DNA from: Lachnospiraceae bacterium
Lineage (GTDB): Bacteria > Bacillota > Clostridia > Lachnospirales > Lachnospiraceae
DNA length: 64,000 bases
Direction of reading: 5' to 3'
Assembly: GCA_910574865.1 (NCBI GenBank)
Contig: CAJTDN010000014.1
Coordinates: 1,264-65,263, forward strand
The notes beneath the pieces were generated by a model. That model saw nothing but the letters and a program-made list of their open reading frames with translations, was not told the origin of the DNA and did no database searches. The translations under genes were made by a program, and so were the position numbers. Below are positions 2,707-33,770 of the stretch, in pieces. The first letter of the stretch is position 1. Each line of letters opens with the position of its first letter.

Positions 2707-2707
2707 T

Positions 2708-3976: not shown

Positions 3977-3987
3977 GAAGTGAGGGC

Positions 3988-5761: not shown

Positions 5762-5770
5762 ATAACCAGC

Positions 5771-5801
5771 AACGGCCTGTTCATCAGGCCGTTATTTTTT
5801 T
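5771..5801 (+). terminator. Rho-independent terminator after the AbiE operon
   Basis: A perfect 9-bp stem AACGGCCTG/CAGGCCGTT with a 5-base loop is followed by ATTTTTTTT. It ends 17 bp before the relaxase start, separating the toxin-antitoxin transcript from mobA. Confidence 0.85.
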
Positions 5802-5818
5802 GAGAGGAGGATTCCATC

Positions 5819-7237
5819 ATGGCAACCACACGCATCATGCCGCTGCACATTGGCAAAGGCCGCACCGAAAGTCAGGCAGTCAGTGACATCATCGACTATG
5901 TATCCAACCCACAAAAGACAGACAACGGCAGGCTCGTCACCGGCTTTGCGTGTGACAGCCGGGTAGCCGACGCCGAGTTTCTGCTGGCGAAACGGGAGTA
6001 CATTTCCACCACTGGCCGGGTACGGGGCGCGGACGATGTACTTGCCTACCATGTCCGGCAGTCCTTTGTCCCCGGCGAGATTACCCCGGAAGAAGCCAAC
6101 CGGCTGGGCGTGGAGTTTGCAAAGCGGTTCACCAAGGGCAATCATGCCTTTGTGGTCTGCACCCATATCGACAAATCCCATATCCATAACCACATCATCT
6201 GGAACGCGGTCAATCTGAACTGTGACCGGAAATTCCGAAACTTTTGGGGCAGTACCCGCGCGGTCCGGCGGCTCAACGATACCATCTGCGTTGAGAATGG
6301 CTATTCCATTGTAGAGGACCCAAAACCGCATGGAAAAAGCTACAACAAATGGCTGGGGGATCAGGCGAAGCCCTCCCACCGGGAACAGCTCCGCGTGATG
6401 ATTGACCAGGCATTAGAACAGAAACCGGCAGACTTTGACGGGCTGTTAAAACTGCTTACAGAAATGGGCTGTGAAGTGTCGCGCCGGGGACAGGCAATCC
6501 GGCTCAAAGCCCCCGGCTGGAAGAATGTTGCCCGCATGGATGAAAAACTGGGCGAGGGATATAGTGAAGATGAAATACGGGCGGTCCTTGCCGGAGAAAA
6601 GCAGCATACGCCCCGCAGAAAAGACGCGGTTTCAACTCCCACTCCCAAGGTCAATCTTCTGGTGGATATTCAGGCAAAATTGCAGGCCGGAAAAGGCGCT
6701 GGCTACGCGCGCTGGGCAAAGGTATTTAACCTCAAACAGATGGCGCAGACAATGAACTATCTCACTGAGCATGGCCTGCTGGAATACGCAGTCTTGGAAG
6801 AAAAAGCGGCGGCTGCTACTACCCGCCACAATGAGCTGTCGGCGCAGATCAAGGCGGCGGAAACCCGCATGGCGGAGATAGCCGTACTGCGGATCCACAT
6901 CATCAATTATGTGAAAACCCGCGAGGTCTATGCGGCCTACCGCAAGGCGGGATATTCCAAGAAATTTTTAGCGGAACATGAAGCGGATATTCTGCTCCAC
7001 AAGGCGGCAAAGCAGGCATTTGACGATTTGGGTATCAAGAAGCTGCCCACCGTCAAGAGCTTGCAGGCCGAGTATGCCCAGCTATTGGAAGGAAAGAAAA
7101 AAGACTATGCCGAGTACCGGCGCTCCCGCGAGGAAATGCAGGAACTGCTGGCCGCAAAAGCCAACGTAGACCGGCTAATGGGATACGGGGAGGAACGCCA
7201 GAATGACCGGGAAAAGGAACAGGGGCAGGACCGCTGA
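5819..7237 (+). CDS. mobA: MOBP-type relaxase
   Basis: A 472-residue relaxase that nicks oriT and stays bound to the 5' end during conjugative transfer. Tyr27 in IIDYVSNPQKT is the likely catalytic tyrosine. YHVRQSF (about residue 79) and the metal-binding cluster His116, His121, His123 and His125 (in HIDKSHIHNH) define the relaxase fold. The C-terminal half is helical and charged, typical of the partner-binding region. GAGAGGAGG lies just upstream of the ATG. Immediately downstream are hairpins and a sequence like an IncP nick site. Confidence 0.9.
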   Translation: MATTRIMPLHIGKGRTESQAVSDIIDYVSNPQKTDNGRLVTGFACDSRVADAEFLLAKREYISTTGRVRGADDVLAYHVRQSFVPGEITPEEANRLGVEFAKRFTKGNHAFVVCTHIDKSHIHNHIIWNAVNLNCDRKFRNFWGSTRAVRRLNDTICVENGYSIVEDPKPHGKSYNKWLGDQAKPSHREQLRVMIDQALEQKPADFDGLLKLLTEMGCEVSRRGQAIRLKAPGWKNVARMDEKLGEGYSEDEIRAVLAGEKQHTPRRKDAVSTPTPKVNLLVDIQAKLQAGKGAGYARWAKVFNLKQMAQTMNYLTEHGLLEYAVLEEKAAAATTRHNELSAQIKAAETRMAEIAVLRIHIINYVKTREVYAAYRKAGYSKKFLAEHEADILLHKAAKQAFDDLGIKKLPTVKSLQAEYAQLLEGKKKDYAEYRRSREEMQELLAAKANVDRLMGYGEERQNDREKEQGQDR

Positions 7238-7283
7238 CGCGCCTGTTTTTTCGCATTTTCTCACCGCCGCAGGCAGGTGAAAA

Positions 7284-7390
7284 GCGTTCCGCAGGAACGC
7301 GCAGCCACAGAATGAAATTCTGTGTTCAAAAGGGGCTTGGGGAATCCCCAACAAGCAGCGCCAGGAGCCGGATGGCTATCCTGGGGCATT
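7284..7390. other. Candidate origin of transfer (oriT) with three palindromes
   Basis: Three back-to-back palindromes follow the relaxase gene: GCGTTCC-GCA-GGAACGC (7284-7300), CACAGAAT-GAA-ATTCTGTG (7306-7324) and TTGGGGA-A-TCCCCAA (7337-7351). Then CTATCCTG (7376-7383) is identical to the core of the IncP/MOBP nick region, in which cutting follows the final G. Clustered repeats, a nick-like sequence and a neighbouring MOBP relaxase together support an oriT. The position downstream rather than upstream of the relaxase is a caveat. Confidence 0.5.
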
Positions 7391-7510
7391 GCTTGCCAGT
7401 CTTATCAGAAATATCTGACAATTAATTTCATCTTAATCCATAAGTACCGTATTCTTGCATCATTCGAGAGGAAGAAATATAATCGGTGAAAGTTGTGCGG
7501 AGATATTGAT

Positions 7511-7591
7511 ATGGACTATGTATCAAGATTACAGCCGAATGATATTAGGACCGCGCAACGGAAATTTGAAGTCTGTTGTGTGGTTTTGTAA
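7511..7591 (+). CDS. 26-codon ORF, possibly a gene remnant
   Basis: ATG at 7511 opens 26 codons (MDYVSRLQPNDIRTAQRKFE, then six more residues) before TAA. The first 20 residues look protein-like, while the last six (VCCVVL) do not. It lies between the relaxase gene and the cargo, as if the start of an element gene had been cut by insertion of the cargo. The ribosome site is weak. It may be non-coding. Confidence 0.3.
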   Translation: MDYVSRLQPNDIRTAQRKFEVCCVVL

Positions 7592-7600
7592 AAAATAACT

Positions 7601-7636
7601 TCTCTCCATCTCAACTCCATCTTTCTATGTTACACT
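7601..7636 (+). promoter_or_regulatory. Promoter of the two-component operon with 11-bp direct repeats
   Basis: Two tandem 11-mers, TCTCTCCATCT (7601-7611) and CAACTCCATCT (7612-7622), end 8 bp before a -10-like TACACT (7631-7636). The same repeat and the same distance occur before the transporter operon at 10764-10821. OmpR-family regulators bind tandem half-sites at about 11-bp spacing, so this is the probable autoregulatory site of the response regulator at 7655. Confidence 0.7.
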
Positions 7637-7654
7637 ACTCTTGGAGGTGTCATA

Positions 7655-8329
7655 ATGCCAAAAAAGATTTTAGTAATCGAGGATGAAGAATCCATTCGCA
7701 ATATAATCCGGGTCTTTTTGGAAGATGCCGGCTATACCGTATTTGTAGCCGGGGACGGTCTGGAAGGAGTCAACAAATTTCACGAAAAAAGTCCCGACCT
7801 GGTTCTGCTGGATCTGATGCTTCCTAAGATGAATGGCTTTACCGTATGCGATATTTTGCGGAAAGAAAGCCGAACTCCCATCATCATGCTCACCGCCTTG
7901 GATGATGATGACAGCCAGTTGAAGGGTTTTGATACCCTGGCCGATGACTATATTACCAAGCCTTTTTCTATGCCGGTGGTAATGAAACACATTGAAGCGG
8001 TATTACGCCGCACAGAACCGGCCGCGTCGGAACCTTCGGTCATCCGCTATAAAGCACTTGTTTTGGATGCAGATAGTTTTTCTGTCCAGGTAAATGGGTC
8101 GCCTGTGTCCCTCACGACCCGGGAATTTGAAATACTGAAATTTTTACTGGAAAATCAGGGGCGGGTCTTTACACGCGATAACCTCCTGGACAGGATATGG
8201 GACTACGATTATGTGGGCGATGAAAAAATAATTAACACACATATCAAGAACATCCGTAAAAAACTGGGTGTTGACTATATTGAAACCATCAGAGGGGTGG
8301 GATATAAGATTGAAAAAGAAAATCAGTGA
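7655..8329 (+). CDS. OmpR-family response regulator
   Basis: A 224-residue cytoplasmic DNA-binding regulator. The receiver domain (1-120) has the acidic pocket Glu9/Asp10, phospho-acceptor Asp53 in LLDLMLPKMNG and the conserved lysine in YITKPFS. The winged-helix effector domain (about 128-222) shows LTTREFEILKFLLENQGRVF, the signature of the OmpR/PhoB group. GGAGGTG precedes the ATG. The sensor kinase gene overlaps it by 20 bp. Likely targets are its own promoter and the ABC-transporter operon, judged by shared 11-bp repeats. The stimulus is unknown. Confidence 0.92.
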   Translation: MPKKILVIEDEESIRNIIRVFLEDAGYTVFVAGDGLEGVNKFHEKSPDLVLLDLMLPKMNGFTVCDILRKESRTPIIMLTALDDDDSQLKGFDTLADDYITKPFSMPVVMKHIEAVLRRTEPAASEPSVIRYKALVLDADSFSVQVNGSPVSLTTREFEILKFLLENQGRVFTRDNLLDRIWDYDYVGDEKIINTHIKNIRKKLGVDYIETIRGVGYKIEKENQ

Positions 8330-9704
8330 AAGTATTCAAATTAAGACTTTTCTCAGTATGCTTGCGCTGCTAATCGTGGGCTGCGTCCTTATTTATGGGT
8401 TGGTCATGTTCTTTTTGCCGAGAAATTACCATGCCGAACTGCAAAGCCAGGTCACAGCAGATTTCTACGAACTGGTCGACATCATCGAGCAAAATGGCTG
8501 GGAGTCAAGTACAAATTCAATCCTGGAATTTGCCTTAAAAAACAATGCTTCTGTCACGGTTACTGATGGAGCTGGGGAATCTGTATTTTCAGTGAATTCA
8601 GTCAATTTGGCAAGTACCGAAAATGTCGTGCCGGCAACTGATTCTACTCCCTCTATGAGCTGCTCTTCTACTTTCCAGGATAACGGGCAATCTTATCAAC
8701 TGTATGCCAATATCGCTTTGATAGCAGTATCGCAGTCCTATGGTATTCTTTTGCAGCTCCTCCCCCTCATTGTGGGAATCATTCTGGTGGTGTCCGTCCT
8801 TGGGGCGATGATTTGCTCCCGGTACTATTCCAAGCCGCTGGTCAGCATCAGCAATGTGGCAAAGCGGATGACCACCCTGGATATGACCTGGAAGTGTGAA
8901 GTCAACCGAAAAGACGAGATCGGTGTGCTGGCTGCCAGCTTAAATGAGATGTCTCAGCGTTTGAGCGATACGATGGACAGCTTGAAGGCGGCAAACTGGC
9001 AGTTAAAGAAAGATATTGAGCGGGAACGGGAACAGGAAAAGCAGCGCGTGGAATTTTTCACCGCTGTCTCCCATGAGCTGAAAACCCCCATCGCCATCAT
9101 CAAGGGGCAACTGGAGGGTATGATCTATCAGGTGGGCGAATACAAAGACCGGGATACCTACCTGCGCCGGTGCATGAAAACCACCAATGACATGGAGGCG
9201 CTGGTCAAGGAGATTTTATCGGCGGCCCGGATGGGCGGCAGCGACTTCCACCTGGAGCGTACCGACCTGGACATCAGCCAAATGCTGCGAAAGGTCTGTC
9301 AGCAGTTCCGTGGCCGGATGGAGGACAAGCAGATGGAGCTTCGCATGGATATCCGGCCGGAATACCACTATCAGGGGGACCGGCGGCTCATGGAGAAGGT
9401 GTTCACCAATGTGATCGGAAACGCCGTGGCTTATTCGCCGGTGGGCGCGGTGATTACTGTCACCCAAAAGGACGAGGTGTTTTCCGTGGAGAATACCGGC
9501 GTCCACATTGCCGAGGAAGATTTGGAGCGTATCTTCACGCCCTTCTACCGGGTGGACAAATCCCGGAACCGGAACAGCGGCGGCAGCGGCCTGGGGCTGT
9601 ATATCACCAAGACCATCCTGGATCACCACGAAATCGTCTACAAGATGGTGAATACGGAAAATGGTGTGCGGTTTACTGTTATCTTCCCGAAGGCAGCAAT
9701 GTAG
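8310..9704 (+). CDS. Membrane sensor histidine kinase
   Basis: A 464-residue kinase. TM1 is at about residues 10-37, an extracellular sensor of roughly 115 residues follows, and TM2 is at about 150-178, followed by a HAMP linker. The HisKA motif SHELKTPIAIIKGQLEGM contains the phosphorylated His255. The ATPase domain has the N box (EKVFTNVIGNAVAYS) and a GGSGLGLYI G box. A TTG start at 8310 is chosen because GGGGTGGGA lies upstream and the product then begins MKKKISES with a good TM1. It overlaps the regulator by 20 bp. The sizeable extracellular domain suggests it senses a ligand directly, unlike Bce-type kinases. Confidence 0.9.
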   Translation: MKKKISESIQIKTFLSMLALLIVGCVLIYGLVMFFLPRNYHAELQSQVTADFYELVDIIEQNGWESSTNSILEFALKNNASVTVTDGAGESVFSVNSVNLASTENVVPATDSTPSMSCSSTFQDNGQSYQLYANIALIAVSQSYGILLQLLPLIVGIILVVSVLGAMICSRYYSKPLVSISNVAKRMTTLDMTWKCEVNRKDEIGVLAASLNEMSQRLSDTMDSLKAANWQLKKDIEREREQEKQRVEFFTAVSHELKTPIAIIKGQLEGMIYQVGEYKDRDTYLRRCMKTTNDMEALVKEILSAARMGGSDFHLERTDLDISQMLRKVCQQFRGRMEDKQMELRMDIRPEYHYQGDRRLMEKVFTNVIGNAVAYSPVGAVITVTQKDEVFSVENTGVHIAEEDLERIFTPFYRVDKSRNRNSGGSGLGLYITKTILDHHEIVYKMVNTENGVRFTVIFPKAAM

Positions 9705-9864
9705 GAGCAACCCTCTGTTTGTGCGCTATCTGGCGGTAGGGAAATCTTAGCCTCAGACTGTTCGAAAAACAGCTTTGGTTTGGTATTAACATATTTGATA
9801 TAGAGCGAGAAATTTCATGGCCTGCTCTTAGAGATTTTAAACCTCTCTGGTAGAATTGGGAACT

Positions 9865-9885
9865 TTAATTTGGTATAATCAAAGA
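9865..9885 (+). promoter_or_regulatory. Extended -10 promoter before the hydrolase gene
   Basis: TGGTATAAT (9871-9879) is an extended -10 box in an AT-rich gap 41 bp before the hydrolase start. No good -35 is present, as is common for extended -10 promoters. The rest of 9705-9919 holds nothing else I can support. Confidence 0.5.
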
Positions 9886-9919
9886 GACAAATTGGAATTT
9901 TACAGCGAGGTGAAAAAGG

Positions 9920-10666
9920 TTGAACTATGCTGAATATGGGAAAGGAAATAGTAATGTAATTATCCTCCTACATGGAGGTGGTTTGTCATGGTGGAATTAC
10001 AAAGAAATTGCTGAAATGCTACAAACGAATTATCATATAATTATACCCATATTAGACGGTCATGCAGGAAGTGATAAACGATTTACGACGATAGAAAATA
10101 ACGCTTTAGAGATTATAGAATTTATAAATGATAAACTGGATGGTTCCGTTTTATTGATTGGAGGACTATCACTTGGAGGACAGATTTTACTTGAAATTTT
10201 ATCTCATCGTAAGGATATATGTAAGTATGCAATAGTGGAAAGCGCACTTGTAATACCTTCAAAATTCACATATTTTATGATTAAGCCTGCGTTTGGGAGT
10301 TGTTATGGTTTGATAAAGTATAAATGGTTTTCAAAATTACAATTCAAATCATTACGAATAAAGCAGCATTTGTTTGATAATTATTACAAAGATACTTGTG
10401 CAATAACAAAGGGCGATATGATTGCTTTTTTACAGGAAAACTCATTATATTCCTTAAAAGATGGGATTGAAGAGAGCGAAGCAATAGTTCATATTTTTGT
10501 CGGAGAAAAAGAAAATCACTCAATGAAAAAATCAGCAGAACTAATTCATAAAAAACTACAGAATAGTTCTATACAAGTTCTTCCTAATATGTATCATGGA
10601 GAGTTTTCAATAAACCATGCAGATGATTATGTAAGAAGACTATTAGAAATAATAGAACAAAAATAA
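9920..10666 (+). CDS. Alpha/beta hydrolase, AT-rich cargo gene
   Basis: A 248-residue soluble alpha/beta hydrolase. The oxyanion-hole motif LLHGGG is near residue 17, the nucleophile elbow GGLSLGG near residue 83, and the probable catalytic histidine lies in NMYHGEFSINHADD near the C-terminus. The start is a TTG after AGCGAGGTG. Base composition is strikingly AT-rich compared with the genes on either side, so it probably came from another source. It sits between the kinase and the transporter operon with its own promoter and terminator. The substrate cannot be told; resistance by hydrolysis of a small molecule is possible but unproven. Confidence 0.75.
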   Translation: MNYAEYGKGNSNVIILLHGGGLSWWNYKEIAEMLQTNYHIIIPILDGHAGSDKRFTTIENNALEIIEFINDKLDGSVLLIGGLSLGGQILLEILSHRKDICKYAIVESALVIPSKFTYFMIKPAFGSCYGLIKYKWFSKLQFKSLRIKQHLFDNYYKDTCAITKGDMIAFLQENSLYSLKDGIEESEAIVHIFVGEKENHSMKKSAELIHKKLQNSSIQVLPNMYHGEFSINHADDYVRRLLEIIEQK

Positions 10667-10711
10667 ATCCTAAGTTTTCGGGATAGATAATCGAATAAAT
10701 TTATTCTACAC

Positions 10712-10750
10712 AGCCGAGAGGTTTTCCATGTGAAAGCTCCTCGGCTTTTT
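10712..10750 (+). terminator. Terminator after the hydrolase gene
   Basis: AGCCGAG (10712-10718) pairs with CTCGGCT (10740-10746), and a run of T follows. Confidence 0.75.
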
Positions 10751-10763
10751 CGCGCTCTATCGC

Positions 10764-10821
10764 CAACTCCACCTAAAAAATATCTCAACTCCACCTCAAC
10801 TCCACCTTCGTAGTGTACTAT
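10764..10821 (+). promoter_or_regulatory. Transporter operon promoter with three 11-bp direct repeats
   Basis: CAACTCCACCT occurs exactly at 10764-10774, 10786-10796 and 10797-10807, that is, in an 11-bp register with one unit skipped. The last copy ends 8 bp before TACTAT (10816-10821), a -10-like box, and there is no proper -35. The geometry matches the promoter at 7601-7636. This is a likely activator site for the response regulator at 7655. Confidence 0.75.
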
Positions 10822-10899
10822 AAGGGTGTTCCCGGCAGACGGGACACCCACCGGAGCGGGAAACAGCCCCGGCGAAAAACTACGTTAGGAGGTACACAA

Positions 10900-10947
10900 G
10901 TGAACCAACTGGTTTTACGAAAAGGAAATGAGGTGGCTCAGACATGA
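10900..10947 (+). CDS. 15-residue leader ORF coupled to the permease gene
   Basis: GTG at 10900 follows a strong TTAGGAGGTACACAA ribosome site and encodes MNQLVLRKGNEVAQT. Its TGA overlaps the ATG of the permease gene (ATGA at 10944-10947). The ribosome site is better than that of the permease, so the leader probably feeds ribosomes to it by translational coupling. No function of the peptide itself is implied. Confidence 0.5.
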   Translation: MNQLVLRKGNEVAQT

Positions 10948-12281
10948 ACCTGTGCAAACGGGCCTGCCTGTATTCCATCCGCAAAAAGGGCAAGACCCTC
11001 ACACTGCTGGCGTTTCTGCTGGTCATGGCCACGCTGATGCTGACCTGCCTTTCCATCCAATCGGCCACAGAAACAGCCAACGCCAACATCAAAAAAGCCC
11101 TGCTGGGCTATTTCACCATCAACGCCAAGACCTTGGAGAGCGGTATCCCGGAGGATACGGTGAGCCAGATTCTTGATGTGGATGGTTTGAGCGGCAGATA
11201 CACCCTGCGCTCCTACACCTACGCTGCTTATTTTGACGCAGACGGGAACCTTCTGGAGATCAACACCGAAGGCGCTGCCCAGGTGCCTGAGGGCTACGAG
11301 AACGCCGGACGGGTGGTGGCAAACTCCAATTCCCAGGAGGATAGCTATTTCACCGATGGCGGCTTTGAGATGGTGGAGGGAAATCCCATCACCACCGAGG
11401 CCGGCAGCCAGGTGCTGATCCATGAGAAATTCGCCCAGCGCAACGGCCTGTCTGTGGGCGACACCATGCTGCTGGGGAATGTGGAGGACAAAGATAAGAC
11501 CATCCCTGTGACGGTGGCCGGGATCTTCACAAATACCGAGGAACAGGATTCCATCGGCATGGCCCCGTCCTATGACCTTTACGACAATATCGTGTTTACC
11601 GATCTCTCCACCGCCTCTTTCCTGCTCTACGGCACCGAGGGAACCACCAATGTCCAATACGGGGATTTTTATGTGAACGACCCGGACGAGCTGGAGCGCA
11701 TTATGACCGATGTGCAGGAACTGGATGGCGTGGATTGGGAGAACTGCACCCTGACCCGCTACGACAACGACTATCAGAATGCCAAGGAATCCTTGGAGGG
11801 CTTACAGAACATCGTCTTTATCGCCATTGCGGTGGTATCGGTGATTTGTTTCCTGGTGCTGGCCCTGTTCCTGACGCTGCGGCTCCGTGGGCGAATCCAT
11901 GAAACCGGCGTCTATCTGGCCATGGGCATTTCCAAAGGCTCGGTGCTGCTGCAATACCTGCTGGAAGTGATCCTCGTGGCGGCCATCGCCCTGTTCATTT
12001 CCTTCGGCACCAGCACAGCCATTTCCCATCAGATCGGGAGCAGTCTGCTCTCCCAGGTGACAAGCGAAACCTATGAGACGGTGGACTTGACCGGGGAAAA
12101 CGAAGCTGCCCAAGAACCCACCGAGGATTTGGGTCTTGCCGAGATCGAGGTGGCTGTTTCCGCCGAGGATTACGCACTGGTGTGGGCTTTCGGCATGGTG
12201 CTGTGTGTGGCCTCTACCGCACTGGCGGCCTACCCGATTATGAAGATGAAGCCCAAGAGTATCTTGTCGCAGATGAGTTAA
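10944..12281 (+). CDS. FtsX-type ABC transporter permease 1
   Basis: A 445-residue MacB/FtsX-type permease. TM1 is at about residues 15-40 (TLLAFLLVMATLMLTCLSIQ). A long extracytoplasmic domain spans about 45-285. Three C-terminal TM segments follow at about 290-315, 335-360 and 410-430, with the FtsX hallmark LRLRGRIHETGVYLAMGISK between the first two. The end MKMKPKSILSQMS is shared with the next permease, so the two are paralogues forming a heterodimer. It is preceded by a coupled leader ORF and the response-regulator sites. Such pairs export or sense peptides or lipids; the substrate is not evident. Confidence 0.87.
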   Translation: MNLCKRACLYSIRKKGKTLTLLAFLLVMATLMLTCLSIQSATETANANIKKALLGYFTINAKTLESGIPEDTVSQILDVDGLSGRYTLRSYTYAAYFDADGNLLEINTEGAAQVPEGYENAGRVVANSNSQEDSYFTDGGFEMVEGNPITTEAGSQVLIHEKFAQRNGLSVGDTMLLGNVEDKDKTIPVTVAGIFTNTEEQDSIGMAPSYDLYDNIVFTDLSTASFLLYGTEGTTNVQYGDFYVNDPDELERIMTDVQELDGVDWENCTLTRYDNDYQNAKESLEGLQNIVFIAIAVVSVICFLVLALFLTLRLRGRIHETGVYLAMGISKGSVLLQYLLEVILVAAIALFISFGTSTAISHQIGSSLLSQVTSETYETVDLTGENEAAQEPTEDLGLAEIEVAVSAEDYALVWAFGMVLCVASTALAAYPIMKMKPKSILSQMS

Positions 12282-17396: not shown

Positions 17397-18617
17397 TTGG
17401 CAAAAAGAAAACGATTGATTCCAGAGTATAACACCGTCACGCTGAACGGTGTAGAGTATTACAGGACCCGGATAGAAGATGCCGATGGCAAGCGGGTTGC
17501 TCTTTATGCAAGGACCCCCGAAGAACTGTACGACAAAGAACAGGAGGCGTTGGCGCAGATCGGTCACGCCCGGTTCCATCGGAAATCGCCAACGGTAGCG
17601 GAATACTGTGAGAAATGGCTGCTGATGCAGTCAGTCCATGTTCGGCAGACTACCTTGACGGATTACACCTCCAAGGTACGGCGGCACATTATCAAGGAGC
17701 TGGGAGAGATGCGTATGGCAGATGTAACGCTGGATGACATCCAGCTCGCCCTCGTCCCTGTTTCCAAGAAGTCAGCATCGGTCTACAAGTCCGTGGTGAT
17801 TCTTTATAAATCCATCTTTCGGGCGGCTAAGGAAAGCCATGTGATTGAAGTGAACCCAACACTCCATCTGACTGCAAAAGGCGGCGGTGTTCCGCAAGAG
17901 GACCGCCAGGCGTTGACGGATGAACAGGTCGAGCAGCTTTTAGATGCGATCTGCGACTTGCCTCCCTACGTGTTTGTGATGATCGGCTTGTATGCCGGCC
18001 TGCGGCGAGAAGAAATCCTTGCACTGCAATGGGATTCGGTATATCTGGACACGGATGCACCGTATCTGACAGTGCGGCGGGCATGGCACACAGAACATAA
18101 TCGGCCGGTCATTCTCACCGAACTAAAAACGAAAGCGGCGGAGCGGAATATCCCGCTTCCGACCTGTCTGGCAGAATGTTTGAGGGAGGCAAAGAAAACA
18201 TCTACATCAGATTATGTGGTTGCTAATCGAGACGGTGGCCCACTGTCTTATACGCAGTTTAAGCGGCTGTGGCAATATATTGTGACACGAACCGCCAAGC
18301 CGAGAGTGACCCGCAAACTGGTAGACGGAAAATATGTAAAATACATCCTCTACCCGCAACTCGGAGAGAAAGCCCGAAACAACGGCCACTGCGTTTACAG
18401 CCTGGATTTCGAGGTCACGCCCCACCAACTCAGGCACACCTACATAACCAACCTGATTCATTCCTCGGTGGACCCCAAAACGGTGCAGTACCTGGCAGGT
18501 CACGAGAGCAGTAAAATCACAATGGATATTTACGCAAAAGTCAAATACAACCAACCAGATCAGGTTGTTAAAGCGATGGGCAGCGCATTTTCTCAATGGG
18601 ATGCCATGTGGGCATAG
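17397..18617 (+). CDS. int: Tyrosine recombinase (ICE integrase), copy 1
   Basis: A 406-residue Tn916-type integrase. The N-terminal arm-binding domain is at 1-65, SAM-like core-binding at about 70-160, and the catalytic domain at about 175-390. The catalytic set is visible: Arg in GLYAGLRREEIL, HQLRHTYITNL, the His of LAGHESSK, and the nucleophile Tyr in MDIYAKVKYNQ. The start is TTG after GAGAGG, which reads MAKRKRLIPEYN and parallels the second copy. It is followed by its own terminator and a second related integrase. Confidence 0.92.
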   Translation: MAKRKRLIPEYNTVTLNGVEYYRTRIEDADGKRVALYARTPEELYDKEQEALAQIGHARFHRKSPTVAEYCEKWLLMQSVHVRQTTLTDYTSKVRRHIIKELGEMRMADVTLDDIQLALVPVSKKSASVYKSVVILYKSIFRAAKESHVIEVNPTLHLTAKGGGVPQEDRQALTDEQVEQLLDAICDLPPYVFVMIGLYAGLRREEILALQWDSVYLDTDAPYLTVRRAWHTEHNRPVILTELKTKAAERNIPLPTCLAECLREAKKTSTSDYVVANRDGGPLSYTQFKRLWQYIVTRTAKPRVTRKLVDGKYVKYILYPQLGEKARNNGHCVYSLDFEVTPHQLRHTYITNLIHSSVDPKTVQYLAGHESSKITMDIYAKVKYNQPDQVVKAMGSAFSQWDAMWA

Positions 18618-18634
18618 AACAGAAAATACAGTAG

Positions 18635-18665
18635 GAGCGAGGCAGGAACGCCTCGCTCTTTGCTT
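18635..18665 (+). terminator. Terminator between the two integrase genes
   Basis: GAGCGAGGC (18635-18643) pairs perfectly with GCCTCGCTC (18650-18658), followed by TTTGCTTTT. This makes the two integrase genes separate transcripts. Confidence 0.8.
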
Positions 18666-18758
18666 TTCCTAATCCGTATCTTTGATTCAATCCGGCGTTT
18701 CTGATAAAAAAGGAGTGAAGGAACCAATTTGATTTGCGCATAAGAAAGGAAATTATCT

Positions 18759-19964
18759 ATGGCTAAGAAAAAAACAATTCCCCAGTACACCAGTGTGGAG
18801 CGGAAAGGCATCCAGTATTATAGGACACGGATTCTGGACGCCGATGGGAAGCAGGTCAGCCTGTACGCAACAACCTGTGAGGAGCTTTACGAGAAACAAT
18901 TAGCGGCAAGACGCCAAGTCCAGGAGATTCTTTTTCACCGGCAGCATCCGACCGTTGCAGAATATTGCGAGAAATGGCTGGTGATGCAGTCGGCAAAGGT
19001 TTCAGCAGCCACTTTGAAAGGATACGCCTCCAATATGAGGAATTACGTCATCAAACCGATGGGCGATATGTATATGGAGGAAGTGACGGCTGACGACATC
19101 CGCCTGGCGCTGGTGCCACTGTCAAAGAAATCAGAGGGCCTTTATAACAAAGTGAATATGCTCATCAAGTGCGTTTTTTATTCCGCAGAGCGCAGCCAGC
19201 TAATTGAAGATAACCCCTGTGCGGGAATATCAGGCAAAGGCGGGAAGCCAGCACAGAAGAAGGAGGCGCTAAGTGATGAGCAGGTAGCGGTACTCCTGGA
19301 AACCATAAAAGGTTTGCCGCCATACCTCTTTGTGATGATTGGCCTATACGCTGGCCTGCGCCGGGAAGAAGCCCTTGGCCTCCAATGGGACTGTGTATTC
19401 CTGGATGATCCAACCCCGTACCTTTCCGTGCGGCGGGCATGGCGGGCGGAACACAACCGGCCGGTAGTCTCTACGATCCTAAAGACCAAAGCGGCCCGGA
19501 GAGACATCCCTATCCCTAAGTGCTTAGCCGATTGCCTGCGGGACGCGAAGGCCGTCTCTAAGTCTGACTTTGTAATTGCCGACGGCAAAGGTCAGCCGCT
19601 GTCTTACTCGCAGTTCAAGCGGGTATGGCAGTACATTGTTGTCCGCTCCACCAAGGAGCGCACCTATTATAAATATGTGAACGGACAGAGCATCAAATAC
19701 ACGGTAAAGCCGACGCTGGGAACCAGCCAGAAAAACAACCCCAGGATCGTCTATACCCTGGATTTTGAAGTGACGCCCCACCAACTGCGGCATACCTATA
19801 TTACAAACTTAATCTATGCGGGAGTTGACCCCAAGACGGTGCAATATCTTGCCGGGCATGAAAATAGTAAAACAACTATGGACATTTATGCAAAAGTCAA
19901 GTATAATAAGCCCGAAGAACTTTTCGGTGTGGTGGAGCAAGCACTTCACCCATCTGGCACCTAA
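18759..19964 (+). CDS. int: Tyrosine recombinase (ICE integrase), copy 2
   Basis: A 401-residue paralogue of the integrase at 17397, clearly related along its whole length but diverged at many positions. The catalytic residues are intact: GLYAGLRREEAL, HQLRHTYITNL, LAGHENSK and Tyr in MDIYAKVKYNK. AAGAAAGGAAATTATCT precedes the ATG. No excisionase gene precedes this copy. It is the last gene before the sequence becomes AT-rich and non-conjugative, so the element end should lie within about 170 bp. The amount of divergence argues against a recent tandem duplication. Confidence 0.92.
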   Translation: MAKKKTIPQYTSVERKGIQYYRTRILDADGKQVSLYATTCEELYEKQLAARRQVQEILFHRQHPTVAEYCEKWLVMQSAKVSAATLKGYASNMRNYVIKPMGDMYMEEVTADDIRLALVPLSKKSEGLYNKVNMLIKCVFYSAERSQLIEDNPCAGISGKGGKPAQKKEALSDEQVAVLLETIKGLPPYLFVMIGLYAGLRREEALGLQWDCVFLDDPTPYLSVRRAWRAEHNRPVVSTILKTKAARRDIPIPKCLADCLRDAKAVSKSDFVIADGKGQPLSYSQFKRVWQYIVVRSTKERTYYKYVNGQSIKYTVKPTLGTSQKNNPRIVYTLDFEVTPHQLRHTYITNLIYAGVDPKTVQYLAGHENSKTTMDIYAKVKYNKPEELFGVVEQALHPSGT

Positions 19965-27427: not shown

Positions 27428-28696
27428 ATGAAGGATTTAAAGCATTTGGAGTATTTTGAGAATCTCCTGCAGGAGTCGAACAACGACCTGGTGCGGGAGG
27501 CGAAAGAAGAGGGGCGCAAGGCCATCGGCTACACTTGTTACCAGATTCCCGAGCCGGTCTTGAACCTCCCGGGTTGTTTTTCGCTGCGGTTGTCGGCTCC
27601 GCGTGTTGGTGGTATCGAGATGGGAACGTACTATATGACGTCGATGACCTGCGAGTATTGCCGGGCGTTGGTGGAGCGGAACTTGGAGGGCGGCTACCAG
27701 TTTTTGGATGGCCTGATTGGGGCGGCCTCCTGTTCGCAGCTGGCGGACGCGCACGAGAACATGGAGAAGCATGGTATCACGGAAAGGGAAGGTTTTTTTA
27801 TCGAGCACGTGGACACGCCGATGAAATCGGACGAGAACGCGGTGAACCTGATTAAGACGATTTGCGAGAAGCGGATTTTGAAGCCCTTGCGGGAAAATTA
27901 TGGCATTGACACGGGCGACACGGCGCTTCGCAGGGCGGTCGAAGAACACAACGAGGTCTGCAAGCTGCTCAATGCCATCGGCGAGTATAGAAAGTTTGAC
28001 AACCCGCCGATTACCGGCTATGAGTTCGCCGTGCTGACACTGGCGACGTATACTTGTCCAAAGGATAAGTTGGTCAAAAAATTGAAAGAGACATTGAAGG
28101 AATTGAAAACAAGAGAGCCGGACACGGATTATAAGAAGAAATATCGGGCGCGTGTTTTGGTGGCCGGCTCCGAGATGGACGATCCGGAGTACATAAAGTG
28201 TATCGAGGAGGCCGGCGCACTGGTGGTCTGCGACCGTTATTGCTTCGGGCAAAATCCCGGACGCAATGAAATTATTTTGACAGAGGACGAGGACGCGCTG
28301 ACGCAGGTGTGCCGCCAGAACGTGATGGAAAACCAGTGCCCGCGCTACATGGGGCAGAAGAAGATCCAGTCGCGCAAGGATTACGTGGACAAATTGGCGA
28401 AGGAATATAAGGCGGACGGGCTTATTTACCAGCAGATGAAGTTTTGCAATTTCTGGGGCTATGAGCGGGCGGCGTGCTCCCACATCATGCGTGACGACTA
28501 CGGCTGGCCGGTGCTCTCGATTGACCGTCCATACGTGAATGCCAATTCGGGGCAGCTTCGCACCCGGGTGCAGGCCTTTGTCGAGAGTATCGAGATTAAG
28601 AAGATTCAAAGGACGCAGGATGCTTCGAGGGCGCAGGGGGCGGACAAGCTACATAGGACGCGGGAAGTTTCAAAGATGCAGGGAGGTGGCAGGTAA
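27428..28696 (+). CDS. 2-hydroxyacyl-CoA dehydratase-family subunit (HgdB/double-cubane-like)
   Basis: A 422-residue protein of the HgdB/BcrC superfamily. The C-terminal domain has MKFCNFWGYERAACSHIM and SGQLRTRVQAFVESIE, typical cluster-ligand and subunit-interface segments. Further conserved cysteines lie in MTSMTCEYCRAL, IGAASCSQLADAHEN and CDRYCFGQNPGRNE. Members hold [4Fe-4S] or double-cubane clusters and perform very low-potential reductions. The start follows GAGAGGTG. The last 30 residues are repetitive (RTQDASRAQGADKLHRTREV), apparently an added tail. It is adjacent to a second family member (start at the next base after the stop). No ATP-dependent activator gene is in the window. 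Confidence 0.82.
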   Translation: MKDLKHLEYFENLLQESNNDLVREAKEEGRKAIGYTCYQIPEPVLNLPGCFSLRLSAPRVGGIEMGTYYMTSMTCEYCRALVERNLEGGYQFLDGLIGAASCSQLADAHENMEKHGITEREGFFIEHVDTPMKSDENAVNLIKTICEKRILKPLRENYGIDTGDTALRRAVEEHNEVCKLLNAIGEYRKFDNPPITGYEFAVLTLATYTCPKDKLVKKLKETLKELKTREPDTDYKKKYRARVLVAGSEMDDPEYIKCIEEAGALVVCDRYCFGQNPGRNEIILTEDEDALTQVCRQNVMENQCPRYMGQKKIQSRKDYVDKLAKEYKADGLIYQQMKFCNFWGYERAACSHIMRDDYGWPVLSIDRPYVNANSGQLRTRVQAFVESIEIKKIQRTQDASRAQGADKLHRTREVSKMQGGGR

Positions 28697-30235
28697 ATGG
28701 GAAAGAAAATGAACAGCGAGCCCCTGGGAAAATTGTACAACGGCGGCGTGACGAAGCGTCGGCGGGAGTGGCGGGGGATTAAGGACACCTGGTACGATTA
28801 TACCAGATGGGTCGGCAATTGGGCGACGATGGCCAAGTTCATGTTAAACGTGCAAAATTTGAAAGGATTTTTCCGCTACCGTTGGATGTCGAACTTCCTT
28901 TCCGTGCCGGATTTCGTGGATCGCCACACGGAGGGCTTGCGCGGGCCGCAGCTTCGCATCGCGCACAAGGAGTTTGACTTCATCGTGGCGCACGCGACGG
29001 ACACGATTGCCAACCTCTTCCGGGGCGACGCCAATATCGGGGGCGACCCGAAGTGGAGCAAGAAGGTGGTCATTTTTGACGAGAACATGATGACGCACGT
29101 GATTAACGGGTTTCCGAACTTGACGGCGGTCACCCGTGAAATCCCGCCGATTTACATGGGTTCGGTGATGCGCCAGGACGGGATTTTGCATTATCTTGAC
29201 GCGGCCGAGGAGTACGGCGTGCCTTCCGACGTCTGCCCGATGCCGGCGGGGGAACTGGGGCTGGCCATCGAGGACGATTACCCGCAGGTCGGATGTTGTA
29301 TTATTCATTGTAATACGACGTGCGATGGTTCCCTGATGGGAAATGGCATCGAGGACAGACGGTTTGACGTGCCGACGTTCGAGCTGGCGGTGCCGATTCG
29401 TTATCTTGACGAGGAGACGAAGGATTATGCGGCGCAGGAGATAAAAAACTGCATCAAGTTCATCGAGGACACCACCGGGGAGAAATTTGACTGGGACGCG
29501 TATTTCAAGGCGATGCACACGTTTAACGAGGAGACGAGGCTGTTTTTGGAGTGGCTCGATGTCAGCAAGACGGATTATCCGCAGGTGGTGGGAAACAACG
29601 TGGCTCTCTACCGGGACGCCTATTACCAGGTGGCGGGCGGCCGTGACATCGGCTTTTTGAAAAATGAACAGGAAATCACGAGAATCATGCACGAGGCCTA
29701 CGAGGCGAAGACCCCAATCGTCTCCGAGGTGCGGCACCGGGCGATTCTCTGGGGCGTGCAGGCGCAATATTATTCGGCGTTTCCGGCGTGGCTGCAAAAC
29801 TGCTGGGGCATCCAGCCGCTGATTGACATGTTGTCGCTGACCTCGACGGAAATTTATTCGGAGGATGACAAAGAGCAGGCCTATTACGACATGGCGGACT
29901 TGTACGCGAAGGAGAACATGCGCAACCGCTCCGAGGGCGGCTACCAGGTAGGCGTGGAGGATTTGTGGCGTTTCTGCGAGGAGTTCAGGGCCGACGTCGT
30001 CATCATGTACGAGCACATTGCCTGCAAGGCGATGACGGGATACCATGGACTGTTCGAGGAGGAAGGGCGCAAGCACGGCGTGCACGTGATTTGGGTTCCG
30101 CACGACTTGATGGATCCGCGTACGGTCAGCCGCGAGGAAATGCGCCAGAGCGTGAACCAGTACATGCGCACGATTCTGCATGAGGAACCGCTGGATCCGA
30201 GCCTGGAGTCGATTGACGACGGGGAAGCATGGTAA
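28697..30235 (+). CDS. 2-hydroxyacyl-CoA dehydratase-family subunit, second partner
   Basis: A 512-residue member of the same superfamily and likely partner of the protein before it. Recognisable pieces are HATDTIANLFRGDANIGG, VCPMPAGELGLAIEDDYPQ with GCCIIHCNTTCDGS (a dense cysteine group), and a C-terminal domain with VVIMYEHIACKAMTGYHGLF. It lacks the final QLRTRxxAFxE segment, as expected for the non-identical subunit. GGGAGGTGG precedes the ATG and the gene directly abuts its neighbour, so the two are co-translated. The substrate is unknown; classic hydroxyglutaryl- or lactoyl-CoA dehydration is not supported by neighbours. Confidence 0.8.
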   Translation: MGKKMNSEPLGKLYNGGVTKRRREWRGIKDTWYDYTRWVGNWATMAKFMLNVQNLKGFFRYRWMSNFLSVPDFVDRHTEGLRGPQLRIAHKEFDFIVAHATDTIANLFRGDANIGGDPKWSKKVVIFDENMMTHVINGFPNLTAVTREIPPIYMGSVMRQDGILHYLDAAEEYGVPSDVCPMPAGELGLAIEDDYPQVGCCIIHCNTTCDGSLMGNGIEDRRFDVPTFELAVPIRYLDEETKDYAAQEIKNCIKFIEDTTGEKFDWDAYFKAMHTFNEETRLFLEWLDVSKTDYPQVVGNNVALYRDAYYQVAGGRDIGFLKNEQEITRIMHEAYEAKTPIVSEVRHRAILWGVQAQYYSAFPAWLQNCWGIQPLIDMLSLTSTEIYSEDDKEQAYYDMADLYAKENMRNRSEGGYQVGVEDLWRFCEEFRADVVIMYEHIACKAMTGYHGLFEEEGRKHGVHVIWVPHDLMDPRTVSREEMRQSVNQYMRTILHEEPLDPSLESIDDGEAW

Positions 30236-30318
30236 TCGCGGCGAGCCGCGCCGGCCTAAAAAGCGGATGCGGGTCGGACGGCGCACGGGGCGCTCATGAA
30301 AAAGGAAGGAGACGGACT

Positions 30319-30486
30319 ATGGGAAAATTCATTTCAATTATAAAGACGGTCTTGGCCGTGGCGCTGGCCTTGTTCATTTTAAGCTGGATCGTGTATTTCT
30401 TTAATTTGGACATGAAATTGTCGGCGGCTCTTTACAATCCGCTGCAAAAGATTTATGATATGAGAAAGAGGGACAAACGGTTATAG
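30319..30486 (+). CDS. 55-residue single-TM protein in the dehydratase-like operon
   Basis: The product begins MGKFISIIKTVLAVALALFI and has one membrane helix over about residues 7-28, then a short soluble tail with KLSAALYNPLQKIYDMRKRD. AAGGAAGGAGAC lies before the ATG. It sits between the dehydratase-like pair and the HypA-like gene on the same strand. No family is recognised. It could anchor a redox complex at the membrane, which is inference from position only. Confidence 0.6.
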   Translation: MGKFISIIKTVLAVALALFILSWIVYFFNLDMKLSAALYNPLQKIYDMRKRDKRL

Positions 30487-30570
30487 CGTGAGCACGAACG
30501 GCCGCACGGGTCACGGTCGAAATCCGCGTTTTGGCCAGAGAGAATGAAAAGCAAAGGAAGGCAGGACATC

Positions 30571-30981
30571 ATGCATGAGTTAGGGATTGTGTTTCACATC
30601 GCGGACAGCGTGGAGAAAATCGCGGAGGAAAACGGCGTTTCCAAGGTGCTTGGCGTCACGTTGGAGATTGGCGAGGTGTCCACCGTGATGGGGGATTATC
30701 TGACGGATTGCTGGAACTGGAACGCGAAAAAGTCGGAGGTCTTAAATGGCTGCGAGTTGAAGATTGAGACGGTCAAGGCCGTCACGCATTGTGACGGCTG
30801 TGGGCGGCGATACGAGACGGTGGCGCACGGGAAGATTTGTCCGCATTGCGGGAGCGAGAACACGTGGCTTCTGCAGGGAAACGAAGTCAGCATCAAGGAA
30901 ATTTGCGTGGAGGACGCGGAAATGGAGGTAAGTTATGCCAGAGATGAGCAAGGCGGTCATCCCGCCGAACAAAGGGGATAA
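30571..30981 (+). CDS. hypA: HypA-like nickel/zinc metallochaperone
   Basis: A 136-residue protein starting MHELGIVFHIADSVEKIAEE, with the HypA N-terminal Met-His-Glu nickel site. The zinc domain has CDGCGRRYE and CPHCGSENTWLLQGNEVSIKEI, as in HypA/HybF. HypA delivers nickel to [NiFe] hydrogenase. No hydrogenase or other hyp gene is visible here, and the neighbours are iron-sulfur and flavin enzymes, so a different client is possible. The start at 30571 is chosen because it gives the family's fixed N-terminus. It overlaps the flavoprotein gene by 47 bp. Confidence 0.85.
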   Translation: MHELGIVFHIADSVEKIAEENGVSKVLGVTLEIGEVSTVMGDYLTDCWNWNAKKSEVLNGCELKIETVKAVTHCDGCGRRYETVAHGKICPHCGSENTWLLQGNEVSIKEICVEDAEMEVSYARDEQGGHPAEQRG

Positions 30982-33730
30982 GCACCCGAGGGAGCGGATT
31001 TTGAAGCTCGGGCAGAAGATTACGGACGTGGCGGCGCACAAGATCAAGGGAATCACGTCCGACGACCCGGAGTATTGGGGATTGGCGTCTATCGTCACGA
31101 ACGAGATGGCGGACGTGGCGTTGAAGATGAAGGTGCGCCACCATTATACCTTTGCCGAAATGGTGAAGATGAACGACGTGAAAAAGGAAGACGAGGAAAG
31201 GTTCCAAAAGCTTCTTGACGAGATGTCTTACATCGGCCTTCTGGAGTACGATTATGGCAACCATTATGACCACAACGGGCGCACGGCCCCTCAGAGCGAG
31301 CGCAGATATTGTCTGCCGCTGTTCGTGCCGGGCAGCGCGGAGTTGTTTAACATGGAGGAAGGACCGAACGGCAACCAGCGTTTGAAGGATCATCCGGAAC
31401 TGGCCTCGTTCTTTGAGCGGATGACGTTCATCCCGCTGGACGGGCTGACGCACCTGGTGCCGCCGGGCGGCGCGGGGATTGGCATGCACGTCATTCCGGT
31501 GGAGAAGGCCATCCAGATGGAAAACCAGTCCGTCGATTTGGAACACATTTCCTATTGGCTGAAGAAGTACGAGGGACATATCGGCGTCGGCCAGTGTTCG
31601 TGCCGTGTCAGTCGCGCGGTGCTTGGCGAGGGCTGTGGTGACGACGAGATGAACTGGTGCATCGGCGTCGGTGATTTTGCGGATTATTGCCGTGAGACGG
31701 GCAAAGGGCACGACATTACATACGAGGAGGCGATGGAAATCCTCCAAAAGGCGGAGGACAACGGGTTCGTGCACCAGATTACGAATATCGACGGAGAGAA
31801 CAAGATTTTTGGAATCTGCAATTGTAACGTGAACATTTGTAACGGATTGCGCACATCGCAGTTGTTCAACACGCCGAACATGTCCCGCAGCGCCTACACG
31901 GCCAAGGTGGAGAAGGACAAGTGCGTGGCTTGTGGAAAATGTGTGGAATATTGTCCGGCGGGCGCGGTGAAATTGGGACAGAAGCTGTGCACGAAGCACG
32001 GGGAAGTCCAATATCCGAAGCATGAGCTGCCAAAGGGCCTGCGTTGGGGGCGTGACAAGTACGACGAGGATTACCGTGACAACAATCGGAAGAATTGTTA
32101 TGATACCGGTACGGCGCCGTGCAAGGTGGCATGTCCGGCCCATATCGCGGTGCAGGGATATATTCGGAAGGCTAAGGAAGGCAAGTACCAGGAGGCCCTG
32201 GCGTTGATTAAGAAGGACAATCCGTTCCCGGCGGTGTGCGGCCGCGTCTGCAACAAGCGGTGCGAGCTGGCTTGTACGCGCGGCACGATTGACGAGCCGG
32301 TGGCGATTGACTCCATCAAGAAGTTTATCGCGGAGCAGGATTTGCGGGCGGAGACGAGGTATGTTCCGCCGGTCGTGATCCCGTCTAGCGTGAAGAAACA
32401 GTGGGACGAAAAAATTGCCATCATCGGGGCGGGGCCGGCCGGACTTTCTTGTGCCTACTATTTGGCCACGAAGGGTTACAAGCCGACCGTGTTCGAGAAG
32501 AACGCGCGGCCGGGCGGCATGATGACCTACGGCATTCCTTCCTACAAGCTGGAGAAGGACGTCGTGGAGGCGGAGATTGACGTGATTCGTTCGCTTGGCG
32601 TGGACATCCGCTGCAACACGGAAGTGGGAAAGGACGTTACCCTGCAACAGTTAAGGGAGCAAGGCTACAAGGCGTTTTACGTGGCGATTGGTTGTCAGGG
32701 CGGCAAGATTCCGCCGATTCCGGGCAATGACGCGAAGGGCATCGACATCGCGGTCAGCTTCCTTAAGCGGGCGACGGAAGACCAGGGGCAGACGCTTGCT
32801 GGTGACGTGGTCGTGGTCGGCGGCGGCAACGTGGCGGTGGACTGTGTAAGGACCGCGTACCGCTTCGGGGCGACGAACCCGCAGATGTTCTGCCTGGAGT
32901 CGCGGGATACGATGCCTGCCTCCAACGAGGAGATTCGAGAATGTCTGGAAGAGGACATTACCATAAATAACGGCTGGGGACCGAAGGAAGTGCTCAAGGA
33001 TGCCGAGGGCAACGTGAGTGGAATCGTGTTCAAGAAGTGCACCTCCGTGTTTGACGGGGGCGGCAAGTTCAACCCGACGTATGATGAGAACGAGACGGTC
33101 ACGGTGCAGTGCAAAAATATCGTGTTCGCCATCGGCCAGGGCATCGAGTGGGGCGACCTGCTCGCGGGCGAGAAGGTGGAGTTCTGGCACGGCAATTACC
33201 CTGTGGCCGACGCGCTGACTTATCAGACCGCGCAGCCGGACGTCTTTGTGGGCGGCGACGTGTACAGCGGGCCGAAGTTCGCCATCGAGGCCATCGAGGC
33301 GGGCAAGTGCGCGGCAGATTCCCTGCACCGCTTCGTGCAGCCGGGAACGTCGATGACGATTGGCAAGAACCGCCGCGACTTCATCGAGCTGGACAAGGAC
33401 GGCGTGGTGGTTGACAGTTATGACACGGCGGGCAGGAACGAGCCGGGCATGGACGAGAGCATCGACTACCATCATTCGTTCCGAGACGCGCACAAGACGC
33501 TGACGGAGGAACAAGTGCTTTCGGAGACCTCGAGGTGCTTAGGCTGCGGCGCGTCCGTGGTGGACGAGAACAAGTGTATCGGCTGCGGCGTCTGCACGAC
33601 GAAGTGCGAGTTCGACGCCATCAAGTTGCACCGGACGCATCCGGAGTGCACGCACATGGTGAGGAGCGAGGACAAATTCAAGGAAATCGGCGCGTACGCG
33701 CTGAAGAAAGTGTTCAAGGGAAAGAAATAA
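30935..33730 (+). CDS. Multidomain iron-sulfur flavoprotein (GltD-like core with ferredoxin domains)
   Basis: A 931-residue cytoplasmic oxidoreductase. The N-terminal third has cysteine clusters GQCSCRVSRAV and FGICNCNVNICNG, then a 4Fe-4S ferredoxin CVACGKCVEYCPAGA at about residue 330. Next is a GltD/DPYD-type linker (CKVACPAHIAVQGYIRKAKE, later CGRVCNKRCELACTRG, about 390-450), an FAD fold (IAIIGAGPAGLSCAYYLATK, about 491) and an NAD(P) fold (VVVVGGGNVAVDCVRTAYR, about 625). It ends in another ferredoxin pair (CLGCGASV, CIGCGVCTTKCEFDA, about 868-900). It overlaps hypA by 47 bp with GGAGGT before its ATG. It probably carries electrons from NAD(P)H toward the iron-sulfur enzymes of this operon. 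Confidence 0.87.
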   Translation: MPEMSKAVIPPNKGDKHPRERILKLGQKITDVAAHKIKGITSDDPEYWGLASIVTNEMADVALKMKVRHHYTFAEMVKMNDVKKEDEERFQKLLDEMSYIGLLEYDYGNHYDHNGRTAPQSERRYCLPLFVPGSAELFNMEEGPNGNQRLKDHPELASFFERMTFIPLDGLTHLVPPGGAGIGMHVIPVEKAIQMENQSVDLEHISYWLKKYEGHIGVGQCSCRVSRAVLGEGCGDDEMNWCIGVGDFADYCRETGKGHDITYEEAMEILQKAEDNGFVHQITNIDGENKIFGICNCNVNICNGLRTSQLFNTPNMSRSAYTAKVEKDKCVACGKCVEYCPAGAVKLGQKLCTKHGEVQYPKHELPKGLRWGRDKYDEDYRDNNRKNCYDTGTAPCKVACPAHIAVQGYIRKAKEGKYQEALALIKKDNPFPAVCGRVCNKRCELACTRGTIDEPVAIDSIKKFIAEQDLRAETRYVPPVVIPSSVKKQWDEKIAIIGAGPAGLSCAYYLATKGYKPTVFEKNARPGGMMTYGIPSYKLEKDVVEAEIDVIRSLGVDIRCNTEVGKDVTLQQLREQGYKAFYVAIGCQGGKIPPIPGNDAKGIDIAVSFLKRATEDQGQTLAGDVVVVGGGNVAVDCVRTAYRFGATNPQMFCLESRDTMPASNEEIRECLEEDITINNGWGPKEVLKDAEGNVSGIVFKKCTSVFDGGGKFNPTYDENETVTVQCKNIVFAIGQGIEWGDLLAGEKVEFWHGNYPVADALTYQTAQPDVFVGGDVYSGPKFAIEAIEAGKCAADSLHRFVQPGTSMTIGKNRRDFIELDKDGVVVDSYDTAGRNEPGMDESIDYHHSFRDAHKTLTEEQVLSETSRCLGCGASVVDENKCIGCGVCTTKCEFDAIKLHRTHPECTHMVRSEDKFKEIGAYALKKVFKGKK

Positions 33731-33737
33731 AAGAATG

Positions 33738-33770
33738 GGCGATGTCTGCGTCAGCAGACATCGCCGTTTT
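33738..33770 (+). terminator. Terminator of the redox operon
   Basis: GGCGATGTCTGC (33738-33749) pairs perfectly with GCAGACATCGCC (33754-33765) around a 4-base loop, then GTTTT. Confidence 0.85.

Follow-up and report, generated by a model that had tools for sequence, protein, structure and literature searches.

The window analyzed here, a 64,000-nucleotide stretch of contig CAJTDN010000014.1 from a Lachnospiraceae bacterium (GCA_910574865.1, positions 1,264 to 65,263), carries at 27428-33730 five open reading frames (ORFs) that encode two HGD-D-family subunits (A and B), a single-helix membrane peptide (TM), a HypA-like metallochaperone, and a large flavoprotein that resembles the putative isoprene reductase IsrA. 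The five genes represent one branch of a conserved system, found in some gut and rumen anaerobes, in which an ATP-powered type of iron-sulfur reductase is combined with relatives of nickel-handling proteins. The window itself looks like a satellite A-B pair accompanied by IsrA-HypA, with a core cluster on another contig (C5) of the same genome. With a probability that we put at slightly under 60%, these genes form a satellite operon that belongs to a conserved, ATP-dependent reductase of low potential and relies on the activator and the maturation factors of the core.

The window operon and its protein families

A first-pass annotation, made from the sequence alone, had proposed the five genes as an undescribed redox system, and all five ORFs were recovered where it had placed them (Table 1); Pfam assigns all of them to families except for the peptide, which matches none. 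Subunit B begins at the base right after the A stop codon, gaps of 83 and 84 nt separate B from the membrane peptide and the peptide from HypA, respectively, and the HypA and flavoprotein frames overlap by exactly 47 bp, as the annotation had it. The hairpin that follows the last gene is probably the end of the transcript. A Pfam scan of ten neighboring window ORFs (24.4-41.8 kb), two of which lack any Pfam family, returned no CoA-transferase, activator, or hydrogenase, in agreement with the earlier claim that none lies alongside.

Table 1. Coordinates of the window features and of the core cluster on contig C5 of the same genome (locus L005).
Feature	Sequence	Position	Strand	Details
Subunit A, HGD-D family, double-cubane type (BzdN/DCCP-like)	Window	27428..28696	+	422 aa; PF06050 E 1.2e-83
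Subunit B, HGD-D family, N-terminal extension	Window	28697..30235	+	512 aa; PF06050 E 2.5e-39
TM, single-helix membrane peptide, conserved YFFNLDMK-like motif	Window	30319..30486	+	55 aa; no family match
HypA-like metallochaperone	Window	30571..30981	+	136 aa; N-terminal MHE, two CxxC; PF01155 E 2e-30
IsrA-like flavoprotein	Window	30935..33730	+	931 aa; Pyr_redox_2, Fer4_20, Fer4 (Pfam)
Hairpin, 12-bp stem	Window	33738..33765	. (scan lists -)	directly 3' of last stop
CooC	C5 (L005)	7025-7786
A	C5 (L005)	7815-9017
B	C5 (L005)	9011-10750
Activator	C5 (L005)	10772-11569
X	C5 (L005)	from 11755

The best PDB match of subunit A is BzdN of class I benzoyl-CoA reductase (8s02_B, E 6e-24), with DCCP and HadC next. 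Cys37, 75, 102, 272, 304, and 340 of A align with BzdN Cys36/73/100/263/293/327, which are the double-cubane ligands according to the paper on BzdNO, where Cys95/128/380 are given as the ligands of BzdO (PMC11971306). The six positions are cysteines in 17 of 17 aligned A proteins and are predicted to ligate an [8Fe-9S] double-cubane cluster. Likewise, Cys180, 209, and 443 of B are cysteines in 18/18 aligned B proteins, and a B-family profile aligns them with cysteines of BzdO and MbdO, the third being paired with BzdO in a sub-threshold piece only and with MbdO in the main alignment; the three are predicted to hold a single [4Fe-4S] cluster. Ahead of the first cluster cysteine, B has approximately 85 residues more than BzdO, with several invariant positions among them. 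A-B thus looks like a double-cubane subunit joined to an open [4Fe-4S] subunit. Because A keeps the six double-cubane cysteines of BzdN and B the three ligand cysteines of BzdO, the pair appears to be built like class I benzoyl-CoA reductase rather than like a plain 2-hydroxyacyl-CoA dehydratase. Neither protein reaches a named equivalog: the scores are 92.4 bits for BzdN (cut-off 453.8), 22.1 for BzdO (448.6), 25.1 of 750 and 80.3 of 700 for HadB and HadC, and, against NF040772 (DCCP, cut-off 350), 150.6 for A and 39.6 for B. With A and B so far under every one of them, the pair was not filed as BzdNO, DCCP, or a dehydratase.

The flavoprotein has an N-terminal six-cysteine site (Cys221, 223, 242, 295, 297, and 302), together with ferredoxin-type clusters and FAD and NAD(P)H domains predicted from its sequence. 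In the paper by Kronen et al., IsrA is described as a 901-aa putative isoprene reductase with a six-cysteine site, CxC motifs at 180 and 254, and a ferredoxin site from 289 (PMC10134865). The corresponding motifs of the window protein lie at 221, 295, and 330 (first ferredoxin cysteine), with offsets of 74 and 109 that equal the reported ones, and the six cysteines of the site are kept in 52/52 aligned IsrA homologs. The same text gives HypA near ~73% and HypB near ~56% of 988 IsrA homologs (PMC10134865), with which our own count of 20 IsrA genes away from A-B agrees (HypA adjoining 18, HypB 15). The flavoprotein is therefore IsrA-like, and its pairing with HypA was already in print in that source. 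The window HypA has the PF01155 domain, the MHE start, and the two CxxC motifs of the nickel metallochaperone, and scores 73.5 bits against TIGR00100, under the cut-off of 88.1. A role for it in serving a [NiFe]-hydrogenase was considered and dropped, since PF00374 had no match in the 96% complete draft genome. Two further IsrA genes occur in this genome, on C18 (with HypA) and on C28; the C28 gene (L153:5586-9527) encodes a protein 66% identical to the window flavoprotein. It adjoins a 370-aa ORF that, judged by eye, resembles a membrane protein, with no HypA in the stretch fetched (L153).

The conserved core cluster and the window pair

Around relatives of B, a recurring set of genes was found, comprising a CooC-like ATPase, A, B, a BadF-type activator ATPase, the membrane peptide, and a protein of ~240 aa, here called X. 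From 565 confirmed stretches the best 80 were kept as named loci. Of these, 11 were set aside as near-identical to others and 28 of the remaining 69 because their flanks were short, so that 41 well-flanked non-redundant loci were left. All 41 carry A and B, while CooC and TM occur in 35 each, the activator and X in 34 each, IsrA in 15, HypA in 13, and HypB in 6. Across the 80 loci, cut contigs included, the counts are 79 for A, 66 for TM, 60 each for the activator and X, 59 for CooC, 29 for IsrA, 23 for HypA, and 12 for HypB. The five window families occur together in 23/80 loci and in 13/41 of the well-flanked set, which argues that their association is not a matter of chance. Conservation of the five-gene order, which the first-pass annotation had proposed as a check, thus holds for co-occurrence but not for the exact order, which is shared by only two near relatives (L038 and L039) among the best 80; most often the order runs A-B-TM-IsrA-HypA, interrupted by further core genes. 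Eleven homologs of the membrane peptide from beside A-B pairs could be aligned.

The distribution of the core was examined in 150 sampled genomes of the same family, Lachnospiraceae (thresholds E <= 1e-100 for the activator and E <= 1e-150 for IsrA). B, the activator, and X occur in the same 14 genomes (Fisher p 6e-20, relatedness not corrected), with one extra weak match to X in G030, which lies inside a 729-aa frame, as expected for a true acetyl-CoA synthase (ACS). Sampling across the class revealed X in 5/291 genomes, in each of them next to the activator and B. Carrier records are named Pseudobutyrivibrio, Faecalicatena, Clostridium gasigenes, Emergencia timonensis, and a Treponema metagenome-assembled genome. 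IsrA was detected in 31 of the 150 family genomes, namely 11 of the 14 with the core versus 20 of the 136 without it (Fisher p 1e-6, again uncorrected for relatedness). In a tree of 46 IsrA-like proteins (6 of the 52 sequences were dropped beforehand), the label "within an A-B locus" must have been gained or lost at least five times; 17 A-B-linked proteins, that of the window included, form one group (support 82/94). Such repeated association argues for a joint function of IsrA and A-B.

Two core members have relatives among nickel proteins. A profile of 11 X proteins matched ACS structures (3git, 1oao, and others; best E 7e-6), and 15 of the 16 PDB sequences matched at E <= 1 are ACS. Against PF03598 (CdhC), three X members scored 29.5, 24.2, and 20.2 bits, the third falling below the cut-off of 24. 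On this sequence evidence, X is homologous to the middle domain of ACS. Near its C-terminus X has three cysteines (C-x2-C-x5-C), invariant in 11/11 proteins and located about where the A-cluster begins in ACS; X would not hold a complete A-cluster ligand set, these three being its only invariant cysteines. The structural model of X has a mean pLDDT (predicted local distance difference test) of 83, with values of 55-63 for the last 35 residues, which hold the three cysteines. The possibility that X is itself a true ACS was dropped, as X is truncated and its own genome contains no ACS match. The CooC-like ATPase of the C5 core has CooC1 (3kje) as its best PDB match, with its CxC motif aligned to that of CooC1, and the motif is kept in 14/14 proteins. 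The CxC motif of CooC1 binds nickel.

The genome assembly (5.33 Mb, 82 contigs, 96% complete) contains four PF06050 matches, which are the window pair and the C5 pair. Window A is 53% identical to C5 A and window B 44% identical to C5 B, and window B clusters with the B proteins of further IsrA-linked pairs that likewise have no activator beside them (L038, L040). Among the 80 loci, 20 have no local activator. In each of the 15 of these that were examined, three near-identical pairs included, an activator occurs elsewhere in the genome and is 77-99% identical to that of C5; it lies beside another B in 12 genomes, in a CooC-activator-peptide-X set in two, and at a contig edge in one. The remaining five are L082, with 10 kb available on both sides, and four loci on contigs that stop a short way downstream of B (L060, L063, L083, and L099). 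It thus seems that two or more A-B pairs can share one core, and the activator-less system that the first-pass annotation had envisaged is not supported, given that a BadF-type activator belongs to the conserved unit and is present on C5 in this very genome.

Several further observations concern the surroundings of these clusters. At L036:12904-15788 and L132:1454-4336 the core cluster has an additional, divergent A-B pair as its neighbor, encoded on the other strand. Upstream of CooC in L063 (where it was checked with Pfam), L066, L067, L070, L072, and L082 there is a recurring 2-oxoacid:ferredoxin oxidoreductase gene set, parts of which also occur in L076 and L111; this enzyme could supply reduced ferredoxin. 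A divergent GntR-type regulator, Pfam-checked in L090, accompanies 10/80 loci (L048, L069, L084, L089, L090, L092, L094, L097, L101, and L102). Upstream of the C5 core lies an old-yellow-enzyme-type reductase that resembles BaiCD and bilirubin reductase at scores below their cut-offs; reductases of this type were found in 6/99 loci searched, none of which shows IsrA. Elsewhere in the window, ORFs for a helicase, a NikA/MobC-like protein, and a relaxase (511-7234) resemble part of a conjugative or mobilizable element, and a tandem pair of phage-integrase-family ORFs lies at 17397-19964. Rfam gave no match and ARAGORN no tRNA in the window.

Proposed mechanism and competing explanations

By analogy with BzdNO and DCCP, the activator ATPase of the C5 core would use ATP to push electrons into the [8Fe-9S] cluster of A, from which they would pass to the open-site [4Fe-4S] cluster of B. 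The hard substrate that B would then reduce is probably a compound with conjugated or aromatic C=C bonds, and the reaction may take place at the membrane by way of the 55-aa helix. Going by gene context, IsrA may be the partner linked to NAD(P)H, as a source of electrons or as the reductase of the following C=C bond in the same substrate. HypA (with HypB where present), together with the CooC and X of the core, may be responsible for maturing a site that contains nickel or mixed metals; the most plausible candidates for it are the six-cysteine site of IsrA and X. A low-potential NAD(P)H-linked reductase, as suggested in the first-pass annotation, therefore remains plausible in that a double-cubane-type pair is recurrently linked to an NAD(P)H/FAD/FeS protein and to HypA, but not in the form that dispensed with an activator. 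Its idea of a nickel-dependent cofactor gains further pointers from the CooC-like ATPase, HypB, and ACS-like protein encoded in homologous clusters. Conjugated linoleic acid was considered as the substrate because Pseudobutyrivibrio carries the system; it is not claimed, no link to these genes having been found in the titles and abstract openings covered.

Three other explanations of the same genes were weighed. If A-B were a classic 2-hydroxyacyl-CoA dehydratase or a close variant, with the C5 activator recycling the pair and IsrA and HypA riding along as passengers, then the shared Pfam family (PF06050) and the activator in the genome would be accounted for. HadC, however, aligns cysteines at only part of the six double-cubane positions that A occupies in full, the pair lies far below the HadB and HadC cut-offs, and no CoA-transferase was found in the ten neighboring window ORFs (other loci and the rest of the genome were not searched). 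The repeated linkage of IsrA to A-B also speaks against a dehydratase, which would moreover leave CooC and X without a role. We regard this explanation as very unlikely, and the classic dehydratase was dropped on the strength of the family scores, the six cysteines in A, and the lack of a transferase among those neighbors. Nor do we find it at all likely that IsrA-HypA does the catalytic work by itself, as a diene or alkene reductase with a possible dependence on nickel, and that A-B is an unrelated neighbor that moved along. IsrA-HypA-HypB does occur alone, as the 20 genes away from A-B illustrate, and the induction of IsrA by isoprene has been published (PMC10134865), but linkage to A-B turns up again in different clades of IsrA, and IsrA is overrepresented among genomes with B.

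Somewhat less improbable, though still unlikely, is the explanation that the activator, A-B, and X form an ATP-driven repair or activation complex, which is not itself the catalyst and delivers electrons of low potential to a nickel enzyme, for instance IsrA or a site based on X. CooC and the ACS-like X are near-constant members of the cluster, a single CooC-activator-X set can coexist with more than one A-B pair, and the activator is similar to the methanogenesis marker 15 family (E 1e-31), all of which would suit such a complex. On the other hand, three of the 14 core genomes have no detectable IsrA, so IsrA cannot be its general target, and B keeps the three-cysteine site that is the substrate cluster in BzdO.

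The reading of the window as a satellite reductase operon also has points to its disadvantage. The window itself has no CooC, activator, or X, and service of its A-B pair by the core on C5 is inferred. The same genome encodes other PF01869 proteins, namely a frame of 1471 aa on C7, in which the domain occurs twice, and on C16 a weak, partial match, as well as an anaerobic carbon monoxide dehydrogenase (CODH) on C2 (L175:5415-7307; TIGR01702, 783 bits) with a ferredoxin-like neighbor; since no CooC homolog was found within the 12 kb fetched around the CODH gene, the CooC of C5 could serve that enzyme. IsrA is not obligatory, being missing at E <= 1e-150 from three of the 14 core genomes, and is common where there is no core (20/136 genomes). 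The X of this genome taken alone falls below the PF03598 threshold (E 0.001), its tie to ACS running through the family profile only. Finally, the satellite reading draws on genes, conservation, cysteine sites, and co-occurrence, and no pathway gene names a substrate.

A bolder version of the ATP-driven reductase, which we consider rather doubtful, would make it nickel-dependent: a BzdNO-like pair, a truncated ACS relative, and IsrA, matured by CooC and HypA/HypB, would enable bacteria of the gut and rumen to hydrogenate conjugated or aromatic carbon bonds that are unactivated. If true, double-cubane ATP chemistry would here be combined with an ACS-derived nickel site, a pairing that was not found in searches of open-licence PubMed Central, which covered mostly titles and the beginnings of abstracts.

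Relation to known systems and significance

Class I benzoyl-CoA reductases of the BzdNO/MbdNO type share with the present system two HGD-D subunits, one with six double-cubane cysteines and one with three, and a BadF-type ATPase activator, which is encoded in the conserved cluster (34/41 loci) and for the window pair would be the one on C5. Unlike BzdNO and MbdNO, A and B score far below the family cut-offs, B has an N-terminal extension, and CooC, an ACS-like protein, the TM peptide, and IsrA-HypA are added. The six-cysteine double-cubane site and the ATPase activator are also found in DCCP and its reductase, whereas here there are two different subunits instead of one, and A is well short of the NF040772 cut-off (150.6 versus 350). 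With clade 9 IsrA of Acetobacterium wieringae, the window flavoprotein has in common a length of ~900-930 aa, the reported cysteine spacing, the six-cysteine site, the FAD and NAD(P)H domains, and a HypA neighbor; the difference is that the window IsrA lies in one operon with A-B and a membrane peptide (PMC10134865). The CODH/ACS system is echoed by the core's X, which matches the middle domain of ACS (CdhC/AcsB), and by its ATPase, which matches CooC1 including the CxC motif; unlike ACS, X is truncated and has three C-terminal cysteines only, and this genome has no ACS match.

Within the same open-licence literature, IsrA-HypA and BzdNO/DCCP come up separately, and no description of the combined system (the A-B core plus IsrA-HypA) was found. 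The original proposal of an undescribed system therefore stands for this combination, as far as those titles and abstract openings reach, but not for the pairing of HypA with the flavoprotein, which had already been published (PMC10134865).

Present in a minority of Lachnospiraceae (14 of the 150 sampled), the conserved set offers a concrete candidate for hard reductions in anaerobes. It joins a BzdNO-like reductase to nickel-handling relatives and to a putative diene reductase family, provides a context for IsrA homologs that lack a known substrate, and includes, in X, a possible offshoot of acetyl-CoA synthase.

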